DNA of 45,145 nt from Alloprevotella tannerae ATCC 51259 (GTDB lineage Bacteria; Bacteroidota; Bacteroidia; Bacteroidales; Bacteroidaceae), in the NCBI RefSeq assembly GCF_000159995.1, contig NZ_GG700644.1, positions 53,452 through 98,596 of the forward strand. Direction: 5' to 3'. The notes under the pieces are model-generated. The model did no database searches. It worked only from the letters and a program-made list of their open reading frames with translations, and was not told the origin of the DNA. Positions 378 through 44,998 of this stretch are shown here, piece by piece. The first letter of the stretch is position 1; each line of letters starts with the position of its first letter. The translations under genes were made by a program, and so were the position numbers.

Positions 378-2414
378 TTATACCTCTTTTATGTTTGCGT
401 TAATACTGCCTTTTACTATTCCGTCTAAGATTCTAGTCCTTGCTTTCTTTTCAAAATCATATATTTCGGGAGTACTCCATTGTTGAGTTTGTCTGACGAT
501 ATCCATCATTTCATTTAGTTTTAAGCTCAATTCGTCTACTCCGTTACCTCTTCCAAAATTATCCAGTTTAGCTTTTGGCATATTGTTGCTAAACTTAGAG
601 TTGATACCACGGCTTATCAAACAAAGATTACCAAAGTCATTCAGTCCTGTAGTTGCGTCTAATTGGGGGTGTCCCTCTAGAGCATGTTGAGGATAGAAAT
701 GTTCAACAGAAGTTCTATATGTAAACTCGAAATTTGTGTATTTGTTTGGATCTTGTTTCCATGTGAGGTAATCGTAGAAGTTGAAGATAAAGTTTTCTAC
801 ATTACACCCATTATCTATGAAATCCCAATGAATTGTATTATTGCTAGCCTCGAAATTATTTTCATAAATGATAGTTTCAAAATCTATCTTCTCTTCACAA
901 AGATACCTGTCAAGCATATATGTACAAGCAAGTGTATATAATTTTGTACGCATTTCCTTCTGATCAATTTCCTTCTGATCAATTTCCTTCTGATCAATTT
1001 TCTTGGTGTAGAGATAATATAGAATAGCATTTAGCCAGTGCTTATAGATTTGGGTCGGAGCAGAAACGTGAAACATCGCTTCAAGCATTTTAATGTCCCT
1101 ACTGATTTCATCTTCAGAGTCTACACCGCTGAAGGTTCCAATATAATTTATTTTACTTCCATATTTCTTTGGCGCTTTGAGACTCCAGCCTTCTTTTCCA
1201 TTATAATTTTCGCGTTTGATAATATAAGAGTCAAATAGATTGCGAATCGTCAACAAGGTAATAATATATCGTTTAACAAAAGCACGTCTATTAGAACTAT
1301 TCTGAAGCACTATTTGAAATATATCAATGAGTCGCTTATCGTCAAGTCTTATTTCTGCATCAATATCAGTTTTATAATCATCTTCTTTGCGGTGATACAT
1401 TACTTTTAAGACTTGTAGAAGAAAGTTTGAGAAGTTTATAATTGACCCGAAACGATCATTTCCACCTTCAAGGCTCTTGTCGGAGTTGGGCAGTTCATAT
1501 TTTACATTATTATCAGCATCAGTGAAGAGGTCTGATAAAGAGCGACTAATGTATTCACCCTCATTACTCTCGTTGTTGTTGCTATCATCCTCATCATTTA
1601 TATGACAATATTTTTTGAGCACATCATCAAAATTATCAGATGAAAGATTTGTCCAATTGTCTGAGAATAATAAACTGCGAAGTTTAGGCTTTATTTTCAT
1701 CTGCACATAAGTACTCATGTCTGCACAAGCCTCCCAAATATCATTAAATAAACACAGATAGTGCTTGTCTTCTTCAAGATGTTCCATTAAGATGGCTTTT
1801 AAAACTTCATGTTTTTCCAACTGCTCTCCTCTAGAATTCATAATTTCGAAGTAATGGTTAAGTTCTGTATCACGTGGTAAGGGGATTCGCATGATAATCA
1901 CATTAGATAGTAGGTAGTCTACAAAATCATTTAAGTTGATTTTCTTGGATTTTAATATATTTGTTAGGTTTTTCTTTAAGATCTGGTACACTTCCGATAT
2001 GCTAGCTGTAGAAGGATGGTCGGAAAAACGCCCTTGTGACAGCAATCTGATAGCTTCATCCCCTTCTTTTCGATGTTCATATGAAAAATTTGCCCTTTTA
2101 AACCAAACCATGCTTTGATTAATTTCTTCTAGTGAACTTAATACATTCATTAGGATGGTCAGAGTGGTAAGTCTTTGCTGCCCATCAATAATTTCATAGT
2201 ATTCATTTTGGCCTTTACTTCGTGCAAATACTACAATAGAGCCGATATAATACATTTTATCTTTTTTCATGGCTGCATAATCAGCGATATCTTCCAATAA
2301 TTGAAGCGATTCTGTTTCCCCCCAATCGTAGTTGCGTTGATATATAGGAATTCTATATTCATCTTGAGAAAGGAGTTCCTTGATATTTAATGGGTCTATA
2401 TTGTTTTCAGTCAT
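378..2414 (-). CDS. DUF262-DUF1524 protein (GmrSD-like restriction/defence nuclease)
   Basis: A 678-aa protein of the GmrSD architecture. The N-terminal DUF262 domain (about residues 10-260) carries the PIYQRNYDW segment, the family hallmark IDGQQRLTTL, and the distal MNSRGEQLEKHEVLKA block. The C-terminal part (about 560-640) has the DUF1524 HNH-like pattern VEHFYPQ ... GNLCLISRGINSKF. In characterised GmrSD, BrxU and SspE proteins DUF262 binds or hydrolyses nucleotides and DUF1524 cleaves DNA; extending this to the present protein is inference. The start overlaps the end of the upstream DUF262 reading frame by 8 bp, which suggests translational coupling. An in-frame 15-bp tandem repeat encodes repeated IDQKE pentapeptides in the linker. 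The DNA is conspicuously AT-rich compared with the housekeeping genes further right, consistent with an acquired module. Confidence 0.8.
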   Translation of the reverse strand: MTENNIDPLNIKELLSQDEYRIPIYQRNYDWGETESLQLLEDIADYAAMKKDKMYYIGSIVVFARSKGQNEYYEIIDGQQRLTTLTILMNVLSSLEEINQSMVWFKRANFSYEHRKEGDEAIRLLSQGRFSDHPSTASISEVYQILKKNLTNILKSKKINLNDFVDYLLSNVIIMRIPLPRDTELNHYFEIMNSRGEQLEKHEVLKAILMEHLEEDKHYLCLFNDIWEACADMSTYVQMKIKPKLRSLLFSDNWTNLSSDNFDDVLKKYCHINDEDDSNNNESNEGEYISRSLSDLFTDADNNVKYELPNSDKSLEGGNDRFGSIINFSNFLLQVLKVMYHRKEDDYKTDIDAEIRLDDKRLIDIFQIVLQNSSNRRAFVKRYIITLLTIRNLFDSYIIKRENYNGKEGWSLKAPKKYGSKINYIGTFSGVDSEDEISRDIKMLEAMFHVSAPTQIYKHWLNAILYYLYTKKIDQKEIDQKEIDQKEMRTKLYTLACTYMLDRYLCEEKIDFETIIYENNFEASNNTIHWDFIDNGCNVENFIFNFYDYLTWKQDPNKYTNFEFTYRTSVEHFYPQHALEGHPQLDATTGLNDFGNLCLISRGINSKFSNNMPKAKLDNFGRGNGVDELSLKLNEMMDIVRQTQQWSTPEIYDFEKKARTRILDGIVKGSINANIKEV
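953..1005 (-). repeat. 15-bp in-frame tandem repeat (IDQKE)n
   Basis: The 15-bp unit TGATCAATTTCCTTC occurs at 961-975 and 976-990, with a diverged third copy at 991-1005 and a half copy before it. It encodes repeated I-D-Q-K-E pentapeptides on the minus strand, in the charged linker between the two domains of the nuclease. Because 15 is a multiple of three, copy-number change would alter linker length without breaking the frame. Confidence 0.85.
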
Positions 2415-7479: not shown

Positions 7480-8334
7480 ATGAAGAGACTTCTTATTCTT
7501 GGTTGTCTGTTTGTTTCACTTACAGCACAGGCACAAATTATCGTACCCATCTCTCAAGATCTTCGGAAAGGTACAGTTATTGATACGGCTAGATACAGAG
7601 TGATCTATAGCCTAAAGTATAAAAATCATCCATCCGACAAGGCTTATTTAGACGACGTTCGCAATGTATATATTGGTCGGAATTATGTGAAAGACTTCAG
7701 TGACATTATTTTTCACTTTGATTCTCTTTGTACAGAAGAGTCAAGGCGTGGAGCTACGGCAATCTCTAATGTGCAAGGAAATCCATGGCCCATAGAGTTA
7801 ACACTTGGAAATAATAACAGAAAGGCAGAAATTAAATATCGTATGCCTATGCAAACAGGTGTTCTACTGTATCAACAAGATGTACCACAACTTGACTGGA
7901 CTTTCACAGAGGAAGTAGATACAATCCTTGGCTATGCTTGTTCTAAGGCTATCGCTCCCTTTGCCGGTAGAGAGTATACGGCATGGTTTTCCATGGAAAT
8001 ACCTCTACCTTTCGGGCCTTATAAGTTTGGAGGCTTACCTGGCTTGATATTAAAGGTACAAGACAATGAGTCGCAATATATTTGGGAGGCTATGGGTTTT
8101 GAGAAAATGAATGTCCCCATATTCACGTATCGTTACGAAGGAGAAAAGAAGTGTTCGGTAGAAGAGGCGAGTAAAACTATCTCTCGTATTTTTAAATCGC
8201 CAATTTCCTTTATTGCTGCCAGTATGGGGGGAGCGAAGATAACCATACTCGATAAAAATGGAAAACCTAACTCATCAGATAATCCTGAAGCTTATGCCAT
8301 TTCATACAAACCCCTAGAAAATGAAGAGAAATAA
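7480..8334 (+). CDS. GLPGLI family protein
   Basis: A 284-aa secreted or periplasmic protein. It has a clear signal peptide (MKRLLILGCLFVSLTAQAQ) and the family-defining motif at about residue 185 (PYKFGGLPGLILKVQDN), preceded by the conserved AWFSMEIPLPFGP strand. GLPGLI proteins (TIGR01200) are confined to Bacteroidota and have no proven biochemical function. They are often encoded next to TonB-receptor-like barrels, as here, with a 14-bp gap and the same strand. The pair presumably works together in the envelope. Length is normal for the family and nothing looks truncated. Confidence 0.9.
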   Translation: MKRLLILGCLFVSLTAQAQIIVPISQDLRKGTVIDTARYRVIYSLKYKNHPSDKAYLDDVRNVYIGRNYVKDFSDIIFHFDSLCTEESRRGATAISNVQGNPWPIELTLGNNNRKAEIKYRMPMQTGVLLYQQDVPQLDWTFTEEVDTILGYACSKAIAPFAGREYTAWFSMEIPLPFGPYKFGGLPGLILKVQDNESQYIWEAMGFEKMNVPIFTYRYEGEKKCSVEEASKTISRIFKSPISFIAASMGGAKITILDKNGKPNSSDNPEAYAISYKPLENEEK

Positions 8335-8428
8335 AGATAAGGCACTTAGGTTGAAGAGTAGGTTTTAAACTTTGTACTTTTACTATGTGCGATTGTTCAT
8401 TTCTCGCATCTGTCGCCAAGAGATTCTT

Positions 8429-8698
8429 TTAACGAGATCGTATTTTATATATGATACTCCCGATTATACACCCTATAATAGCTGTAAGAATAAAATTAAA
8501 AGTAGTAGGTTCCGGATGGTATCCTGTATTAGATGATATCTCAAAAAATAATTCATCGAATTTTGTCAATTCATTTTGATCAAGATCACACTTGTCGCCT
8601 ATAATAAGAGGCGTTATGATGATGTAGTTCACAACAAACAAAGTCAATGTCGGAATAAGTAGAGAGATCAAAAAAACAAGGATCTTTTTCATATACAA
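8429..8698 (-). CDS. small two-TM membrane protein, unknown
   Basis: An 89-aa protein (start at 8698, or MKK at 8692) with two predicted membrane helices: residues about 5-31, rich in I/L/V, and about 66-83 (FNFILTAIIGCIIGSIIY). An acidic extracytoplasmic loop (DKCDLDQNELTKFDELFFE) lies between them. I do not recognise the family. It stands alone between the GLPGLI gene (opposite strand) and the SDR gene. Hydrophobic helices ending in basic residues (KIRSR) make a real gene more likely than a shadow frame, but no homology supports it. Confidence 0.5.
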   Translation of the reverse strand: MYMKKILVFLISLLIPTLTLFVVNYIIITPLIIGDKCDLDQNELTKFDELFFEISSNTGYHPEPTTFNFILTAIIGCIIGSIIYKIRSR

Positions 8699-8812
8699 GT
8701 TCTATATTTAAAGTGATTTGTCGGGCAATGCTATTTATTTTTCTTACTTATGCCTTTTATACAGCTGCAAGGCCTTCTTTCCTGCATTCCGTTAGAAAAG
8801 TTGGGGTGGGTC

Positions 8813-9544
8813 TTATGACAGTTTCATCCGTCGCCAAAGCCGGTTGGGGATGAGGCGCCAAAAGAAGGTCAAGATGCGCCAGCGAGTGTTAATGATGCAT
8901 ACGTGGCGGCGATGCCTGATGGCTTTCATAATACTCCGAGCCACTTGTTCGGTGGTCATCAGCATAGGAAAGTGTTCGCTATCCGTGAGTAGAGGGGTGT
9001 CAACAAAGCCCGGACGGATGTCTGTGAAGTTAATGTTGTGTCGTTTCTTGGCTGCCAACTGTTCCAATGCTTGCAAATAGGTGTTCTGCATAGCTTTCGT
9101 TGCACTATAAGCTGGGGCAGAGCCAAGTCCCTTCGTGCCTGCAATGGATGTGATGCAGACGATATGCCCTCCACCCTTAGCAGCAAAATAACGATAGGCA
9201 GCGCCTACCATTCTTGTAAAGCCGGTGGCATTGGTTTCCATCGTCTTGATTTCTTTCTCTGCCTCCAGCGTAGGATTTTTCCACCCTATTCCGCTTGAAT
9301 GGAAATACAGGTCAAGTCCGCCCATACGTTTTATGAGTTGGAAAAGCGCTACTTCGGCATCTTCATCCGTCACGTCAATCCGTGCCGTGAAGACGCGTTC
9401 CGGAGCATTATCCTTTAAATCGGACAACTTGTCTAAGCGGCGGGCTGCCACGCCTACTGTCCATCCTTGTTCAATAAAAAGCTGTGCTACTTCATGGCCG
9501 ATGCCGCTGCTGGCACCAAGTATAATTACTCTTTTTCTTTCCAT
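8813..9544 (-). CDS. SDR family NAD(P)-dependent oxidoreductase
   Basis: About 243 aa from the ATG at 9544 (MERKRVIILGASSGIG). The open frame extends to 9607 but that prefix is not conserved-looking. Rossmann-fold motifs: GASSGIG for cofactor binding near the N-terminus; FHSSGIG at the position of the usual NNAG; catalytic Ser in CITSIAG; YSATK as the Tyr-xxx-Lys catalytic pair; and FTDIRPGFVDTPL after the active site. The C-terminus is basic (RLWRRMKLS). It is probably cytoplasmic. Substrate cannot be inferred: there is no operon partner and the class covers sugars, fatty acids and xenobiotics. Length is normal for classical SDRs. Confidence 0.88.
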   Translation of the reverse strand: MERKRVIILGASSGIGHEVAQLFIEQGWTVGVAARRLDKLSDLKDNAPERVFTARIDVTDEDAEVALFQLIKRMGGLDLYFHSSGIGWKNPTLEAEKEIKTMETNATGFTRMVGAAYRYFAAKGGGHIVCITSIAGTKGLGSAPAYSATKAMQNTYLQALEQLAAKKRHNINFTDIRPGFVDTPLLTDSEHFPMLMTTEQVARSIMKAIRHRRHVCIINTRWRILTFFWRLIPNRLWRRMKLS

Positions 9545-10097
9545 AATGTCATAAGTGTTCGAACCAAGTTTTAAATCGCAAGTCTGTGCGCGTCGTCCCT
9601 TTGCCATAAATCTGGATTTATGCTTCTACTATTGTCCTGACGATTTTGACACCTGACAGTCGGTTATCGTAAGTGGTGTACAGACCATCTATGTCAAGTA
9701 TAATCAAAAACAACGCTTAAAATGCCTACTTTACGAGGGTCATTAGGTCACAAAAATAAAGAAAAAAACGGAAGAAAGCCTCAATGCTTCTTGAGGATAA
9801 AGTTTTTCATCTATTGGAAGTGTGCTTGATGTACGTATAAATGTCTTTTAAATTACGCACAGAATACAGCTCAACGGCGCGCTTTACCGTGCGTTTGCGA
9901 GACGTCTATATTTGCCTCTCTTTTGCTTAAAACAGCTTGCAATTAGATGAGGTGACGTGACACATACACCCTTATCGTGTGGTATAGAACGCAGAATTAG
10001 CTTGTGTTGACGACTGTCCAACGCTAACTTTGCTATGTGGTCGTATTTTTTTGCTAACTTTGCAGTAACAAGTTAATTCTAAATTAGTTTAAGAGGA
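9545..10097. promoter_or_regulatory. divergent intergenic region before the SulP gene
   Basis: About 550 bp without a supported gene between the minus-strand SDR and the plus-strand SulP gene. It contains a small perfect hairpin (CCTCAA-6 nt-TTGAGG at about 9779-9796). At the right end is a -7 element TAACTTTG at 10055-10062, preceded by TTTG at 10029-10032 with a 22-bp spacer, slightly long for the consensus. AAGAGG directly precedes the ATG at 10098. Nothing else stands out. Confidence 0.45.
10055..10062 (+). promoter_or_regulatory. -7 element of the SulP gene
   Basis: TAACTTTG matches TAnnTTTG and lies 35 bp before the ATG. A TTTG is present 22 bp upstream (10029-10032). Confidence 0.5.
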
Positions 10098-11609
10098 ATG
10101 AAGCTCTTGGGATATGCTCCTGTATTTTGGACATCATTGCGCGGATATAACAAAGAGAATTTAAGTGCTGACGCAATGGCAGGTGTCATTGTTGGCATTG
10201 TTGCATTACCTTTAGCCATTGCTTTTGCAATAGCATCGGGCGTTTCTCCTGAAAAAGGTATTATAACAGCCGTAATTGCGGGATTCATTATTTCTGTTTT
10301 TGGTGGCAGTAAAGTGCAAATCGGTGGTCCTACCGGTGCTTTCATCGTTATTGTTTATGGCATTATTCAAGACTATGGTTTCAATGGACTTATGATAGCC
10401 ACTATTATGGCTGGTCTGTTTCTTATTTTACTTGGTTTTCTGAAGTTGGGAACCATCATAAAATACATTCCTTATCCTATTGTAGTCGGTTTTACAGCTG
10501 GCATTGCTCTTACCATTTTCACAACTCAAGTGAAAGATTTATTTGGTTTGACGGTAACCAATATGCCTTCAGACTTCTTGAGCAAATGGGTAACATACGG
10601 TCAATCGTTAAGTTCCATCAATTGGTGGAGCACTGCGGTTGGTTTTTTAATCATAGTTATTATTACGAACACAAAGCGTTTTTCAAAGAAAATTCCGGGT
10701 TCGTTAGTTGCAATTGTTGTCATGACTTTGGCAGCTTGGATATTGCAGCAATATTGTGGGGTGAACTCTATAGAAACCATTGGCGACCGCTTTACTATTA
10801 GCAACAAATTGCCCGAACTATTTTTGCCAACTATCAACTTTGAAATTATGAAAGGTTTGGTAGCTCCTGCGCTCACAATTGCCTTGCTTGGAGCTATCGA
10901 GTCGTTGCTCTCTGCCACTGTTGCTGATGGTGTAACAGGCGAACGGCACGATTCTAATTCTGAACTGATAGGGCAGGGACTTGCCAATATGCTTGTACCA
11001 TTGTTTGGAGGAATACCTGCTACGGGTGCTATTGCACGTACAATGACCAATATAAACAACGGCGGTAAATCGCCTCTTGCAGGTGTTGTTCACGCTATTG
11101 TGCTCTTGCTCATCTTCTTGTTTATGATGCCTTTGGCGCAATATATACCTATGTCGTGTTTGGCGGGTGTATTGGTTGTAGTGGCTTACAATATGAGCGG
11201 TTGGAGAACTTTTACAGCTTTGCTTAAAACACCTAAGTCGGATATTGTTATTTTGCTTGTAACCTTCCTCCTTACTGTGGTATTCGACCTTACGGTTGCT
11301 ATCCAAGTAGGCTTGCTTATCGCTTGTTTACTGCTGATGCGTCGTGTAGCGGAAATAACAGACGTGCGTCTTATCACCGATAAGATTAATTTGAACGATG
11401 ATACCGATGTGCTGTTGGATAAGAAGTATCTTACCATTCCCGATGGTGTAGAAGTATACGAAATCTATGGTCCTTATTTCTTGGGACTTGGCAACCGTTT
11501 CGAGGAACTTATGTCTACTATGGGTGATAAGTCGAAAGTTCGCATTATTCGTATGCGTAAAGTGCCGTTCATTGACTCTACGGGACTTCATAATCTTGTA
11601 CCCCTATAA
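10098..11609 (+). CDS. SulP family anion transporter, truncated within its STAS domain by a repeat array
   Basis: Encodes the membrane part of a SulP permease (sulfate, bicarbonate or related anion uptake; substrate not readable). The conserved N-terminal block LSADAMAGVIVGIVALPLAI and the segment KVQIGGPTGAFIVIVYGI identify the family. About ten or more membrane helices run to residue 420. The STAS domain begins near 440 (VEVYEIYGPYFLGLGNRFEE) and reaches the phosphorylation-type motif FIDSTGLHNL at about 490-500. There the frame runs into a 22/23-bp repeat array and stops after three more residues (503 aa). The missing C-terminal 60 residues lie in the same frame downstream of the array, so the intact protein would be 562 aa, normal for SulP. 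The truncated transporter may or may not be active; STAS domains affect trafficking and activity in known SulP proteins. Confidence 0.88.
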   Translation: MKLLGYAPVFWTSLRGYNKENLSADAMAGVIVGIVALPLAIAFAIASGVSPEKGIITAVIAGFIISVFGGSKVQIGGPTGAFIVIVYGIIQDYGFNGLMIATIMAGLFLILLGFLKLGTIIKYIPYPIVVGFTAGIALTIFTTQVKDLFGLTVTNMPSDFLSKWVTYGQSLSSINWWSTAVGFLIIVIITNTKRFSKKIPGSLVAIVVMTLAAWILQQYCGVNSIETIGDRFTISNKLPELFLPTINFEIMKGLVAPALTIALLGAIESLLSATVADGVTGERHDSNSELIGQGLANMLVPLFGGIPATGAIARTMTNINNGGKSPLAGVVHAIVLLLIFLFMMPLAQYIPMSCLAGVLVVVAYNMSGWRTFTALLKTPKSDIVILLVTFLLTVVFDLTVAIQVGLLIACLLLMRRVAEITDVRLITDKINLNDDTDVLLDKKYLTIPDGVEVYEIYGPYFLGLGNRFEELMSTMGDKSKVRIIRMRKVPFIDSTGLHNLVPL

Positions 11610-12133
11610 GGACTCCTCTTGTACTCCTATAAGGACTCCTCTTGCACTCCTATAAGGACTCCTCTTGTACCCCTATAAGGACTCCTCTTGTACTCCTATA
11701 AGGACTCCTCTTGTACTCCTATAAGGACTCCTCTGCTTTCCTATAAGGACTCCTCTGCTTTCCTATAAGGACTCCTCTGCTTTCCTATAAGGACTCCTCT
11801 GCTTTCCTATAAGGACTCCTCTTGTACCCCTATAAGGACTCCTCTGCTTTCCTATAAGGACTCCTCTTGCACTCCTATAAGGACTCCTCTGCTTTCCTAT
11901 AAGGACTCCTCTTGTACTCCTATAAGGACTCCTCTTGTACTTATATAAGGACTCCTCTTGTACTCCTATAAGGACTCCTCTTGTACTCCTATAAGGAATC
12001 TTCTTGTACTTATATAAGGACTCCTCTTGTACTTATATAAGGACTCCTCCTGCACTCCTATAAGGACTCCTCTGCTTTCCTATAAGGACTCCTCTTGTAC
12101 TCCTATAAGGACTTCTATAAGGATTCCTCTTGT
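11600..12133 (+). repeat. 22/23-bp tandem repeat array (about 24 copies) inserted in the SulP STAS domain
   Basis: Every unit has the core CTATAAGGACTCCTC followed by an 8-nt linker (TTGTACTC, TTGTACCC, TTGCACTC or TTGTACTT; 23-bp unit) or a 7-nt linker (TGCTTTC; 22-bp unit). By core position I count 15 steps of 23 bp and 7 of 22 bp from 11605 to 12104, plus a final truncated unit at 12116. The array is flanked by CTTGT at 11595-11599 and 12129-12133. Removing one flank plus the array (534 bp, exactly 178 codons) restores HNLV-AVMCEQS without a scar. Linker types are interleaved, as expected from repeated slippage or unequal exchange. Each unit carries TAA, so all frames close quickly. Confidence 0.95.
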
Positions 12134-12320
12134 TGCTGTAATGTGCGAACAATCGCGTAAACAAGGCATACCAATTGTGCTGTCGGGTGTCCTCCCGAAT
12201 GTAGAAAACGTATTGTTGAAAGCCAAATTCGACGAACTTTTAGGTCGTGAGAATATTTGTAGCCATATCAATTTAGCACTGGAACGTGCACAACAAATCG
12301 TAAAGACTACGGTAAAATAA
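12134..12320 (+). pseudogene. severed C-terminal part of the SulP STAS domain
   Basis: The stretch AVMCEQSRKQGIPIVLSG through ENICSHINLALERAQQIVK is the second half of a STAS domain and continues the SulP protein directly after FIDSTGLHNLV. Its frame is identical to the upstream part (the array length is divisible by three). It has no promoter of its own. The ATG at 12141 could in principle start a 59-aa fragment, but half a STAS fold is unlikely to be stable. It is best read as the 3' remnant of the split gene. Confidence 0.85.
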
Positions 12321-12599
12321 GATTAGCTTTGACATTGCGATGCACCGGCAATAGCTTCAATGGCACGCGACAACTATTTATTTATTTATTGAAACTATAT
12401 GGTGCATTGTAGGCGTGAGTTTAGGATGAGTTTAGTATACAAATAGTTCTAACTTTTAAAAGGATTTTCTTAACCAAAACTCGCATAATATGTGAGTTCG
12501 GCATATATTCTGTCTGCAAATAGCTTTCCGAAGAGCCTGTCCGTGAAGGATTTTACATTGATTTATACCGAACAGGCGCTAATTTTAACTGTCTCATAT

Positions 12600-13166
12600 T
12601 TACTCTTTATGCTTAGACTTTGAGGAGTGCTTCTTATGATCGAGCCACACAATCAGCACGATGAGCCCACACCAAGCCACGAAAGCAAGCATCCAGCCCC
12701 AGTTGATTGACTGTGCAGCCTCTTGGATAAGTGCCACTAACTCCGAAAAAGTGCCGCTCCGCTGTAGGAAAGAAAAGAACATCAGGCCGAATAGTGCCAG
12801 GAACCCATTTAAGAAAACAGACGCCATCATCTTTAATTTCCACCTAAAGGGAGCTTTCTTGCCTCCTTCATTGACGTAGCCTTTCCCTATAAGGAAGATA
12901 GAATAAAAGGCAGGAACAAGAATCAAGATGATTCCGCCAGGAACGCCCCCAATATACCAGTTGAGTAAAAGAGTTTTTAGAGGTAAATAATGTTCCGAAG
13001 CCACATAAATCAGGAACAATATCACATAGGTAAACATCATTCCCTGTGAATATTTCAGAACTCCACTCTTTATCTTTTCTAAACAAAGCTCCTTAAAAGC
13101 CCATAATATGCCCATCCAAACGAACAGCAGTAGACCGCCAAGCAGAAAAGCAATCCCCTGATTCAT
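12600..13166 (-). CDS. multi-pass membrane protein, unknown
   Basis: A 188-aa protein with about five hydrophobic helices: residues 5-25 (IAFLLGGLLLFVWMGILWAF), 45-60, 72-95 (a glycine-rich IGGVPGGIILILVPAFYSIFLIG), 110-130 and 153-175. The C-terminal tail is Lys/Ser/His-rich and probably cytoplasmic (HKKHSSKSKHKE). I recognise no family. It lies downstream of ackA on the same strand, about 225 bp away and behind a hairpin, so it is probably a separate transcription unit. Confidence 0.6.
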   Translation of the reverse strand: MNQGIAFLLGGLLLFVWMGILWAFKELCLEKIKSGVLKYSQGMMFTYVILFLIYVASEHYLPLKTLLLNWYIGGVPGGIILILVPAFYSIFLIGKGYVNEGGKKAPFRWKLKMMASVFLNGFLALFGLMFFSFLQRSGTFSELVALIQEAAQSINWGWMLAFVAWCGLIVLIVWLDHKKHSSKSKHKE

Positions 13167-13333
13167 ACTTCCTATTTTCGATTAAAAAGATCCGTTTTTA
13201 CTCAAATAGGTCCCTCTATTTGAAAGAGATTTCGTGTAGAGTTATGAAAACAATTCTACTCCTATAGCGTTTTCAGTCGCGTTCTTATACCGAATCCACG
13301 TATTATGGCATCTTTGATCTTAAATACATGCAA

Positions 13334-13364
13334 CTCGTCCTCGTACCAAAAGGCCGAGGGCGAG
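13334..13364 (-). terminator. hairpin after ackA
   Basis: CTCGTCCTCG at 13334-13343 pairs with CGAGGGCGAG at 13355-13364 (10 bp, one G-T wobble). It lies 27 bp past the ackA stop. No strong U-tract follows on the minus strand, so termination is plausible but not certain. Confidence 0.45.
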
Positions 13365-13390
13365 TAAATTTCAATAGGACTAACTGTAGA

Positions 13391-14590
13391 TTAACATTTA
13401 GCTACCAATTCTTCGGTATCCTTAGCGATTAACAATTCTTCATCAGTCGGGATAACGGCTACGATAACTTTGCTGTCAGGCGTAGAGATGATTTCCTCCT
13501 CGCCAAAGTTTTTCCGATTCTTTTCAAAATCGAGTTTTACGCCGAGATATTCCATGTTTTTGCAAGCTTCCTCGCGCACATCCCATTGGTGTTCGCCCAC
13601 ACCGGCCGTGAAGATAATAGCGTCTACGCCATTCATTGCTGCAGCATAAGCGCCAATGTATTTCTTGATACGATAATCGTACATATCAAGCGCCAATTGT
13701 GCACGCTCGTTTCCGGCCATTGCCGCGTCATCAATGATACGCATATCGCTGGACATCTCAGTGATACCCAAGACGCCGCTCTCCTTGTTGAGAAGATTTA
13801 CAGCCTCTTCTAACGTCTGATGTTCCCGCTCCATAATATAGAGAATGGCAGACGCATCGATGTCGCCGGTGCGCGTACCCATCATAAGGCCTTCAAGCGG
13901 CGTTAAGCCCATAGATGTATCTACGCACTTTCCGTGATCTACGGCTGAGATAGACGCGCCGTTGCCGATATGACAAGTGATGAAGCGATGCTCCTCAGGC
14001 TTCATGTTCAGGAATTCGCCCGCACGCTGTGTTACGTAGCGGTGGCTTGTGCCGTGAGCGCCGTAGCGGCGAATACGCATTTCTGAATAATAACGGTAAG
14101 GAAGCGCATACATATACGCCTTAGGCGGCATAGTTTGGTGGAAAGCTGTATCAAAAACAAAGACTTGCGGTAGATCTGGCAACTGCTCCTTAACGGCCAA
14201 ATAGCCTTTCAAGTGTGCTTCGCTGTGAAGTGGCGCCAATTCCATAAAAGGCTTCCATTGCTCAATCATTTCGTCTGTGACGATTTGGCTCTTCGTGAAG
14301 ATACCGCCTGCGACAATGCGGTGGCCGGCTGCGCTAATCTCGTCCAAACTCTTGATGGCACCGATTTCAGGATCGAGCAGCGTTTTAAACATCAAGCGAA
14401 TACCTTCAGAATGCGTCGGGCATTCGTGTTCAATGACGCGCTTCGTGCCATCTGGGAGTGTTACTTTAAGAAAAGAACCTTCAATGCCGACCTTTTCTAT
14501 ACCACCGGCTGCAATGACGCTATGATTCTCCATCACATACAATTTGTATTTGATGGATGAACTACCACAATTGACTACAAGAATTTTCAT
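13391..14590 (-). CDS. ackA: acetate kinase
   Basis: A 399-aa cytoplasmic enzyme that makes ATP and acetate from acetyl phosphate. Signatures in order: VNCGSSSIKYKLY near residue 5 (ASKHA phosphate-1 loop); FDTAFHQTMP around 145-155; RYGAHGTSHRYV around 175; GNGASISAVDHGKCVDTSMG and GLMMGTRTGDID around 205-245; and FTAGVGEHQWDVRE around 325. Length is typical (about 400 aa). It is the second gene of a pta-ackA operon: pta ends 5 bp before this ATG. Together they convert acetyl-CoA to acetate with ATP gain, the usual fermentative route in anaerobic Bacteroidales. Confidence 0.98.
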   Translation of the reverse strand: MKILVVNCGSSSIKYKLYVMENHSVIAAGGIEKVGIEGSFLKVTLPDGTKRVIEHECPTHSEGIRLMFKTLLDPEIGAIKSLDEISAAGHRIVAGGIFTKSQIVTDEMIEQWKPFMELAPLHSEAHLKGYLAVKEQLPDLPQVFVFDTAFHQTMPPKAYMYALPYRYYSEMRIRRYGAHGTSHRYVTQRAGEFLNMKPEEHRFITCHIGNGASISAVDHGKCVDTSMGLTPLEGLMMGTRTGDIDASAILYIMEREHQTLEEAVNLLNKESGVLGITEMSSDMRIIDDAAMAGNERAQLALDMYDYRIKKYIGAYAAAMNGVDAIIFTAGVGEHQWDVREEACKNMEYLGVKLDFEKNRKNFGEEEIISTPDSKVIVAVIPTDEELLIAKDTEELVAKC

Positions 14591-19690: not shown

Positions 19691-20154
19691 CGCGTTTAGC
19701 AGTGGCAGCTAAAGTGAGACTGCCGATGGCCGCTGACTTGTTTTTTCTTGCTTCCTCCCCCGCTTTTATTGACGATGAGGCGTTAGTGCATGCACCTCGC
19801 CTCGTTCTTTTTGCCTGTTGGCGCATTTTTCTGTTTCTTCTGTGCTTCGTTGTGTTGTTTGCTGCCGCCAAACTATCGTTTGCTGCCGCCAAACCATTGT
19901 TTGCTCCCACCAAACGAAAGCCGTTTGCTGTCGGCAATCGAAAAAGTGGCTATAAAACAATGAAATATGCAATGCCGGACTGTTCGTTACCGCTTTCTCC
20001 CTGCTGCATTTTATGATCGTCCGCTTCGAGAATAAGTTGGAGATCGTCATATGCCTAAGGTGACCAGCGGAGAAAATACTGTATGCCCTCTGGAACCCCA
20101 AAAATCATATTTGATAAGCAGCTATATGTAATGACAGATTTGTATATTTGCATT
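19691..20154. other. gene-free region holding 21-bp palindromic repeat copy 1
   Basis: About 460 bp between the pyrH terminator and the acyltransferase gene. It contains the four-module repeat at 19857-19937 (separate entry) and a possible -7 element TATATTTG at 20143-20150. Open frames across it on both strands result from the stop-free 21-bp period and show no domain. Confidence 0.6.
19857..19937 (+). repeat. dispersed 21-bp-period palindromic repeat, copy 1
   Basis: Four modules of the form GTTTG-N7-CAAAC with short YATY linkers: starts at 19857, 19878, 19899 (longer GAAAGCC linker after it) and 19923 (last module degenerate, ending GGCAATC). Each 17-bp module is an imperfect palindrome with a G/C-rich centre such as CTGCCGC. 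The same architecture recurs at about 37.43 and 44.60 kb. Confidence 0.9.
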
Positions 20155-36996: not shown

Positions 36997-37687
36997 GCCT
37001 TTTTTAGGAAAATCTTCCGTTCAGCCTTAAAAATACTATTTTGTCTTTGTTATCACGCATCTGCGTGCTATCTCGGTAGGCCTACTGAGGCCCTCGCACC
37101 TAATGGTTGATGCGGCCGATTGATGTACCTGCGCTTTGCGCGTCGTTTACAACCCATAACCTTGCGCCTGCTGCTGCGGAGGGTAGGGCAGTGAGGCTGC
37201 GCATACGCTTATAGTGCAACAAGATCAGCCACTTCCGGCTGCTCGTCTTTTGCCGTAAGAAGTGAGTTGCAGTTTTCGACAAATCCCAACGGCTGAGTGG
37301 CGATGCGGATTGTGCCGGCATCGCTCAGTTACGTACAAATCACGCCTCCAAAGCCTTTTCTTATCATAATTCGCTTGTATTCAGTACGTAAAAGATTGAT
37401 TTGCTGTTCCGGCAAGTGCTTGGCGCTGTGGTTTGCTGCCGGCAAACCATCATTTGGCGGCAGCATACTATCGTTTGGTGGCAGCAAACCATTGTTTGGT
37501 CGGGCCAAACGAAAGATGATTTGGGCGTGCGCCACTGCCATTCGCCACTCGAAAATAGCCGTTTCGTAGTTGTCGATAACCTGCGTTGCGCTGCTTGGCT
37601 CAACGCCTTATTGGCCTTTTGTTAAGTGCATTGGCCGCGTGTGCCCTCCTTTTCTGCTGAATATTTCTTCTTTCAGTATAATTGTAG
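36997..37687. other. gene-free region holding 21-bp palindromic repeat copy 2
   Basis: About 690 bp between the tRNA promoter and the LptF/G promoter. It contains the four-module repeat at 37431-37514 (separate entry) and otherwise G/C-rich DNA. The minus-strand frame at 37100-37321 is open but shows no motif; I could not support it as a gene. Confidence 0.55.
37431..37514 (+). repeat. dispersed 21-bp-period palindromic repeat, copy 2
   Basis: Modules start at 37431 (GTTTGCTGCCGGCAAAC), 37452 (ATTTGGCGGCAGCATAC), 37473 (GTTTGGTGGCAGCAAAC) and 37494 (GTTTGGTCGGGCCAAAC). Linkers are CATC, TATC and CATT; GAAAG follows the last module, as after module 3 of copy 1. The spacing is exactly 21 bp throughout. 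Confidence 0.92.
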
Positions 37688-44603: not shown

Positions 44604-44687
44604 TGTTTGCTGCCGGCAAACTATCGTTTGCTCGGAAGAAACTATCGTTTGGTGGCAGCAAACCATAGTTTGGCGCCACCAAACCAT
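44604..44687 (+). repeat. dispersed 21-bp-period palindromic repeat, copy 3
   Basis: Modules start at about 44605 (GTTTGCTGCCGGCAAAC), 44626 (GTTTGCTCGGAAGAAAC, most diverged), 44647 (GTTTGGTGGCAGCAAAC) and 44668 (GTTTGGCGCCACCAAAC). Linkers are TATC, TATC, CATA and CATA. The spacing is 21 bp and the orientation of the YATY linkers is the same as in copies 1 and 2. Confidence 0.92.
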
Positions 44688-44998
44688 ATAAAAATAAAAG
44701 TTGATCACTCAAGGCTTGAGGCGACAGGAATATTTTTTTAAGATAATTAGAATCCGATGCACCATCATCGAAAAATAAAGGGAAAACGCCGAACTTGATC
44801 GTAAATTCACGGATTTTTTCCCTTAGATCCCCCTTCAATGTTTAATGTTTATAATAAAAAGAAGGGAAGGGGAGCAGCAAAGACCGTTTTTTTAATCCCG
44901 GTTTTAGGTTGTCTTTTGGGGATTCTGCTATTTCTGCATGTCAAATTTTGCCATCTCCGGATTTATTTTCGTTTTTGCGTAAAAAAGTTTGTTGTGTG

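Follow-up and report, generated by a model that had tools for sequence, protein, structure and literature searches.

In Alloprevotella tannerae ATCC 51259 an array of short tandem repeats interrupts the gene of a SulP anion transporter, which raises the question of how such an array came to lie inside a coding sequence and whether its removal could give the gene back. The locus lies on contig NZ_GG700644.1, in a stretch of 45,145 nucleotides that was analysed as a whole and is called the window here. A first-pass annotation had considered a recent amplified insertion, a reversible off-switch and a mobile minisatellite as explanations.

The array and the gene that it interrupts

Splitting the array into units gave 534 bp with 24 TATAAGG cores, and TRF reported a period of 23, 22.9 copies and a score of 739 for 11594-12113. 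Both confirmed the about 24 copies of a 22/23-bp repeat that had been described before. The array was made up of 15 full units of 23 bp and seven full units of 22 bp, together with a leading partial unit, one unit truncated to 12 bp and a final partial unit. The exact 15-mer CTATAAGGACTCCTC was present in 18/24 units, and all seven 22-bp units carried the linker TGCTTTC. Linkers of five types, A (TTGTACTCC), B (TTGCACTCC), C (TTGTACCCC), D (TGCTTTCC) and E (TTGTACTTA), followed each other in the order C A B C A A D D D D C D B D A E A A E E (B-like) D A, with the 12-bp unit and the last partial one at the end. The CTTGT claimed for both borders was present at both; counting one base upstream, the border repeat is 6 bp long (TCTTGT). 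None of the three frames of the array was open (5, 10 and 9 stops).

Features of the interrupted SulP locus, in positions of the window
Feature	Position	Strand	Basis
Truncated SulP anion transporter ORF, 503 aa	10098..11609	+	Pfam Sulfate_transp PF00916, E 1.8e-86
Minisatellite array, 24 TATAAGG cores	11595..12128	+	TRF, unit split
CTTGT, left border, shared with the repeat unit	11595..11599	+	Sequence
CTTGT, right border	12129..12133	+	Sequence
Separated 3' SulP part, C-terminal half of STAS, open in frame to its own stop	12129..12320	+	Joined frame, conserved columns

Some other identities of the array were considered and rejected. A CRISPR array does not fit contiguous units of 22/23 bp with five recurring linker types and no unique spacers. 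Rfam models for structured RNAs and self-splicing introns gave 0 matches at gathering scores in window 8000-14000, and the reading as an intron-like RNA was rejected. By eye, the spacing of AAGGA...TTG in each unit looks like a ribosome site and start codon; a 97-aa ORF starting within the array had no Pfam match and is regarded as chance.

The truncated ORF consisted of 499 residues encoded upstream of the array, followed by four array-encoded residues and a stop, so that translation in the frame of the host gene ended in ...HNLVPL after 503 aa instead of about 562. In an intact relative (L035) the STAS domain (PF01740) spans residues 452-551, and with the array entering after residue 499 the reported split of the gene inside STAS was verified. 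This was the single SulP match in the genome. Truncated before the second half of STAS, the transporter has most likely lost its function. Such a loss may be tolerated, since 18/57 other genomes of the genus, many of them incomplete, were without a SulP match.

When the flanks were joined 534 bp apart, one open frame of 562 aa was obtained. To this extent the earlier statement that a 534-bp deletion scarlessly rebuilds a 562-aa protein stands, but the word scarless is probably wrong by one codon. The spacing from DSTG to LSGV was 20 residues in the joined protein, while a motif search gave 19 in 107/109 relative loci, the motif being absent in 2. By unfiltered tblastn alignment the spacing was 19 in 108/109 relatives, and the remaining one (L068) aligned only up to query residue 510. 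The 109 loci include one duplicate (L045 = L140), and stops were found in six of the aligned stretches, all at query residues 558-561, which is the normal end of the protein. The 534-bp join is thus probably not the exact ancestral allele. In the simplest reading the original allele would have been one codon shorter and the insertion would have added a duplication of 3 bp. The excess of 3 bp could also be an older, lineage-specific codon, an alternative that we count against our preferred explanation.

The separated 3' part has kept the conserved residues of the family. In the 19 residues before the insertion, 15/15 strongly conserved columns were kept, and after the insertion 14/15 columns conserved at 95% or more, the sole exception being the extra residue. 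The alignment behind these columns took only relatives with the 19-residue motif spacing, and the gap at the extra residue in 107/107 of them is a product of that selection; the claim on the spacing rests on the motif search and the unfiltered tblastn. The kept columns of the 3' fragment would fit a recent insertion. Accelerated decay of the gene was tried as a reading and rejected: ranked from the lowest conservation among 108, its three regions took places 7, 3 and 19. The gene is rather divergent over its whole length, and the lowest place does not belong to the stretch that follows the insertion.

The open joined frame also bears on the proposed off-switch, by which the gene would pass reversibly between an array-bearing and an array-free state through recombination at the CTTGT ends. 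A short direct repeat at both ends, the open frame of the joined flanks, a length of 534 bp that is divisible by three and the conserved columns of the 3' fragment all agree with this proposal. Full excision, however, would rest on just 5-6 bp of homology and exchange between units retains at least one unit; since each of its three frames contains stops, the array would still close the frame after a change in unit number. The joined frame is moreover one residue longer than in 108/109 relatives, and the exact 16-mer of the repeat occurs in 0/57 other genomes of the genus. With stops in every frame and 5-6 bp for excision the off-switch was not supported; we consider it very unlikely as an account of the locus, and an efficient reversible switch is unlikely. 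A phase-variable coding repeat was likewise discarded, because changes in unit number cannot toggle the frame where all three frames hold stops.

The repeat family in the genome and in relatives

The search for the core throughout the genome and in relatives, which had been suggested as a check, was carried out. The 15-mer core occurred 25 times in the genome: 18 copies in the SulP array, 4 at C5:357k, 1 at C6:924k and 2 at C6:1191k. Allowing mismatches added neighbouring units and a variant array of 14.8 copies at C6:907k, in which TTATAGGA replaces TATAAGGA. The genome therefore holds at least five arrays of the 23-bp family, the SulP array included, and TRF gave a period of 23 in 5/5. Judged from ORF positions, the other four are bordered on both sides by open frames, none of them shorter than 139 aa. 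The variant array was located between frames of 306 and 829 aa, and each of the three others between a lipoprotein-like gene (assigned by eye) and an HU-like gene. The HU-like gene tested, in L031, matched HU-HIG (PF18291), and the lipoprotein-like gene tested, in L030, had no Pfam match. The three HU-like genes were 96-100% identical to the query. In L029, L030 and L031 alike, the near-identical HU-like gene is preceded by a 23-bp array and a diverged lipoprotein-like gene. Among the three loci, similarity runs in one main block that stops at or within the array, and it resumes in patches of 75-93% farther away, towards and past the start of the lipoprotein-like genes. The array may thus mark a recombination boundary at these loci, as far as the aligned sequences indicate. 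As neighbours of copies of one gene, three of the four sister arrays may share one origin.

The linkers relate the SulP array to its sisters. Its A linker was also found in three other arrays, and linkers of type B and E are common to it and the array at C6:1191k, because of which an array like that at C6:1191k is a possible donor. The linker TGCTTTC occurred exactly at 7 places in the genome, all of them in the SulP array, and four others were found at 2-3 mismatches. This class could derive from a donor array since lost. The same linker speaks against an assembly artefact, in which the assembler would have misplaced units of another array into the SulP gene. Repeats are known to disturb assemblies, as noted in PMC4596501, and such disturbance is the subject of PMC5771137. 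The two flanks nevertheless belong to one gene in one frame, and 7 units carry a linker without an exact copy elsewhere in the assembly; we rate an artefact as highly improbable.

Further repeats were seen in the genome. Pure AC/TG tracts of 32, 40 and 9 units (L029 2999-3063, L030 7355-7435 and L031 3099-3116) precede the presumed starts of the three lipoprotein-like paralogues by some 400 bp and are possibly phase-variable promoters. At L032 4944-5017 another 23-bp array, of a different unit (TATAAGTCCTCGACATCTTTAAG), adjoins the variant array in the same intergenic space. A 21-bp dyad repeat (GTTTGSTGSCRSCAAACNATN) gave 76 pattern matches at about 48 loci (hand count), with 0 for the reversed control, and is much commoner than the 23-bp family; inverted copies often share a locus. 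It was located at window 19857-19915, 37431-37500 and 44605-44688, where it overlaps only short mechanical ORFs of 89-111 aa, and at L031 172-257. A 15-bp repeat of 3.5 copies, with a period that is a multiple of three, lies at window 952-1004 within the minus-strand ORF 378-2414.

In the relatives, the exact 16-mer was present in 0/57 other genomes of the genus, and an exact tandem pair in 0/300 other genomes of the family, 20 of them from the same genus. A SulP match with an E value of 0.001 or better was found in 39/57 other genomes of the genus, 32 at 60-70% and 7 at 34-36% identity. All 39 main matches lay in frames that stay open over 565-653 aa and have no internal stop; in G014 there is also a secondary, partial match with one stop. 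At the level of the genus, where this was checked, it is thus not the case that relatives share the array and have no intact SulP. The nearest SulP relative is 70% identical, and this distance counts against our preferred explanation.

A tandem pair of the shorter core TATAAGGA gave 17 matches in 6/57 other genomes of the genus against 2 in 2 for the reversed control. Across the family sample there were 16 matches in 9/160 other genomes against 18 in 13 for the control, and the core was rejected as a general conserved signal. Most of the genus signal came from G033 (8 matches on 4 contigs) and G045 (4 matches at one locus), which have 22-bp arrays of their own, with the TATAAGGA core and linkers unlike those of the SulP array. 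In L161, L164 and L165, from these two genomes, the arrays lie just downstream of an apparent gene end when inspected by eye.

Outside cellular genomes, a blastn search of plasmids and phages with the array region gave no match, in a search that low-complexity filtering makes weak; a mobile element as vehicle was set aside. The 15-mer was seen in 2 IMG/VR contigs, with a single copy in each, which we judged to be chance. A scan of a genome-contig database with a 20-mer returned 0 matches, from a scan in which near records may be absent.

Probable origin of the insertion

The probable explanation, in which we place good confidence, is that a dispersed, normally intergenic minisatellite of 23 bp was copied into the SulP gene and there expanded and homogenised in place. 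The insertion is best read as recent and specific to the species, judging from the sequence comparisons. The intact SulP genes of relatives, the 14/15 kept columns and the dispersal of the repeat family in the genome support the recent amplified insertion proposed before, and the array was rightly called a minisatellite.

Entry would have taken place at the short match between gene and unit, TCTTG/CTTGT, leaving both borders at one and the same phase of the unit; a target duplication of 3 bp probably accompanied it. The direction of transfer would have been from intergenic space into the gene. Copying may have proceeded by a microhomology-guided template switch into a sister array and back, or alternatively by integration of an already copied array; either route fits, because of the TCTTG/CTTGT match and the equal unit phase at the borders. 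Expansion and homogenisation in place are suggested by the TGCTTTC linker, which is exact only in the SulP array (7/24 units).

Local expansion would have occurred by slippage or unequal exchange, aided by the quasi-palindromic sequence TCCT-ATA-AGGA-C-TCCT of the core. The minus strand of the array folded better than 100/100 shuffles both as RNA (z -6.8) and as DNA (z -6.3), whereas the plus strand showed no excess folding, as RNA (z -1.3, 11/100 shuffles as good) or as DNA (z -1.2, 14/100 as good). We count the minus strand for and the plus strand against this explanation; a strand bias of folding could favour slippage on one template strand. The 12-bp truncated unit, which keeps the array from being made of whole units throughout, is a further point against it, as are the possible loss of a donor array for the TGCTTTC class and the possible common origin of three sister arrays.

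Two other readings let the array itself move. In one, which we hold to be unlikely, it would be a mobile minisatellite free of terminal repeats, whose arrays copy themselves into short matching sites, genes included, so that the satellite itself transposes. A single-stranded or circular intermediate, or template switching during replication, could serve such a movement and keep the unit phase at the borders. In the other, a resident transposase acting in trans would have moved a MITE-like element with a minisatellite body and duplicated 3 bp, by a mechanism like that of BrickBuilt and without the BrickBuilt terminal repeats. The dispersed copies and the 3-bp excess, which is compatible with a target duplication, suit such an element. 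A terminal repeat of the BrickBuilt type (one consensus, at most 1 mismatch) was however absent from the five arrays and the 600 bp around each, the SulP codons directly abut the array on both sides, and the flanks of the single Y1 transposase that was detected lack the core. We regard the transposed element as distinctly unlikely.

Copying into the gene with expansion in place is at its core an ordinary explanation: a dispersed minisatellite landed in a gene that many relatives lack. What is uncommon is a bare array that interrupts a coding sequence. The locus gives a concrete example of a minisatellite in a bacterium that lies outside intergenic space, with the gene interrupted and the borders readable, and it illustrates one route to the loss of a SulP transporter. 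Taken as the loss of one gene, it is of modest weight; if it were true that the arrays move on their own, it would represent a new mode of spread. Among the top-ranked titles and abstract openings of open PMC papers we found no fitting report of a minisatellite of this type inserted within a bacterial gene, and we do not claim its absence from print.

Comparison with known repeat systems

Bacterial intergenic minisatellites (VNTR loci) consist of tandem units with local homogenisation. The SulP array resembles them in both respects and differs by its position in a coding sequence and in having sister arrays of its unit dispersed at other loci.

REP/BIME palindromes, which are associated with RAYT (Y1) transposases and treated in PMC3733652, have a short dyad core and are extragenic and repeated. 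The present family shares these features with them, and the genome holds one Y1_Tnp gene, but here direct tandem arrays occur at few loci. Within about 1.5 kb on each side of the Y1 gene (L160) neither the TATAAGGA core nor the 21-bp repeat was found, and with a single Y1_Tnp match and no core in its flanks this reading was rejected. By eye, this single, IS200-like transposase gene is flanked by short palindromes of the type AACCC...GGGTT, which are perhaps a REP-like family of their own.

The closest parallel is BrickBuilt of Porphyromonas gingivalis, described in PMC4596501 as a dispersed 23-nt minisatellite/MITE with leader, tail and IS5-like terminal repeats. In the same paper its location is reported as always intergenic and its host range as P. 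gingivalis and P. gulae; 11/19 copies have portions of both leader and tail and 4/19 both terminal inverted repeats. Measured against this description, the present family likewise has a tandem unit of 23 nt without spacers (the SulP array has 7 units at 22 bp), arrays that are dispersed, vary in copy number and contain imperfect units, a narrow host range in a Bacteroidales host, and repeats rich in stops. The consensus AGAYCATARTATCCTCTCRTRTG published there, however, matched the five arrays with 600 bp of flank at best with 7-10 mismatches, where shuffles averaged 8.3-9.0, and the terminal inverted repeat GAGACC[TA]TTGCA as given there (one consensus, at most 1 mismatch) was not found within 600 bp of them. 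BrickBuilt is intergenic in that account, whereas here this holds for 4/5 arrays and the SulP array lies inside a gene. On the published description, with leader and tail judged by one form of the terminal repeat, the family is a BrickBuilt-type dispersed minisatellite in its behaviour and not a member of BrickBuilt by sequence or anatomy. The spread of such arrays in Bacteroidales, which PMC4596501 leaves open, becomes testable with the present locus.
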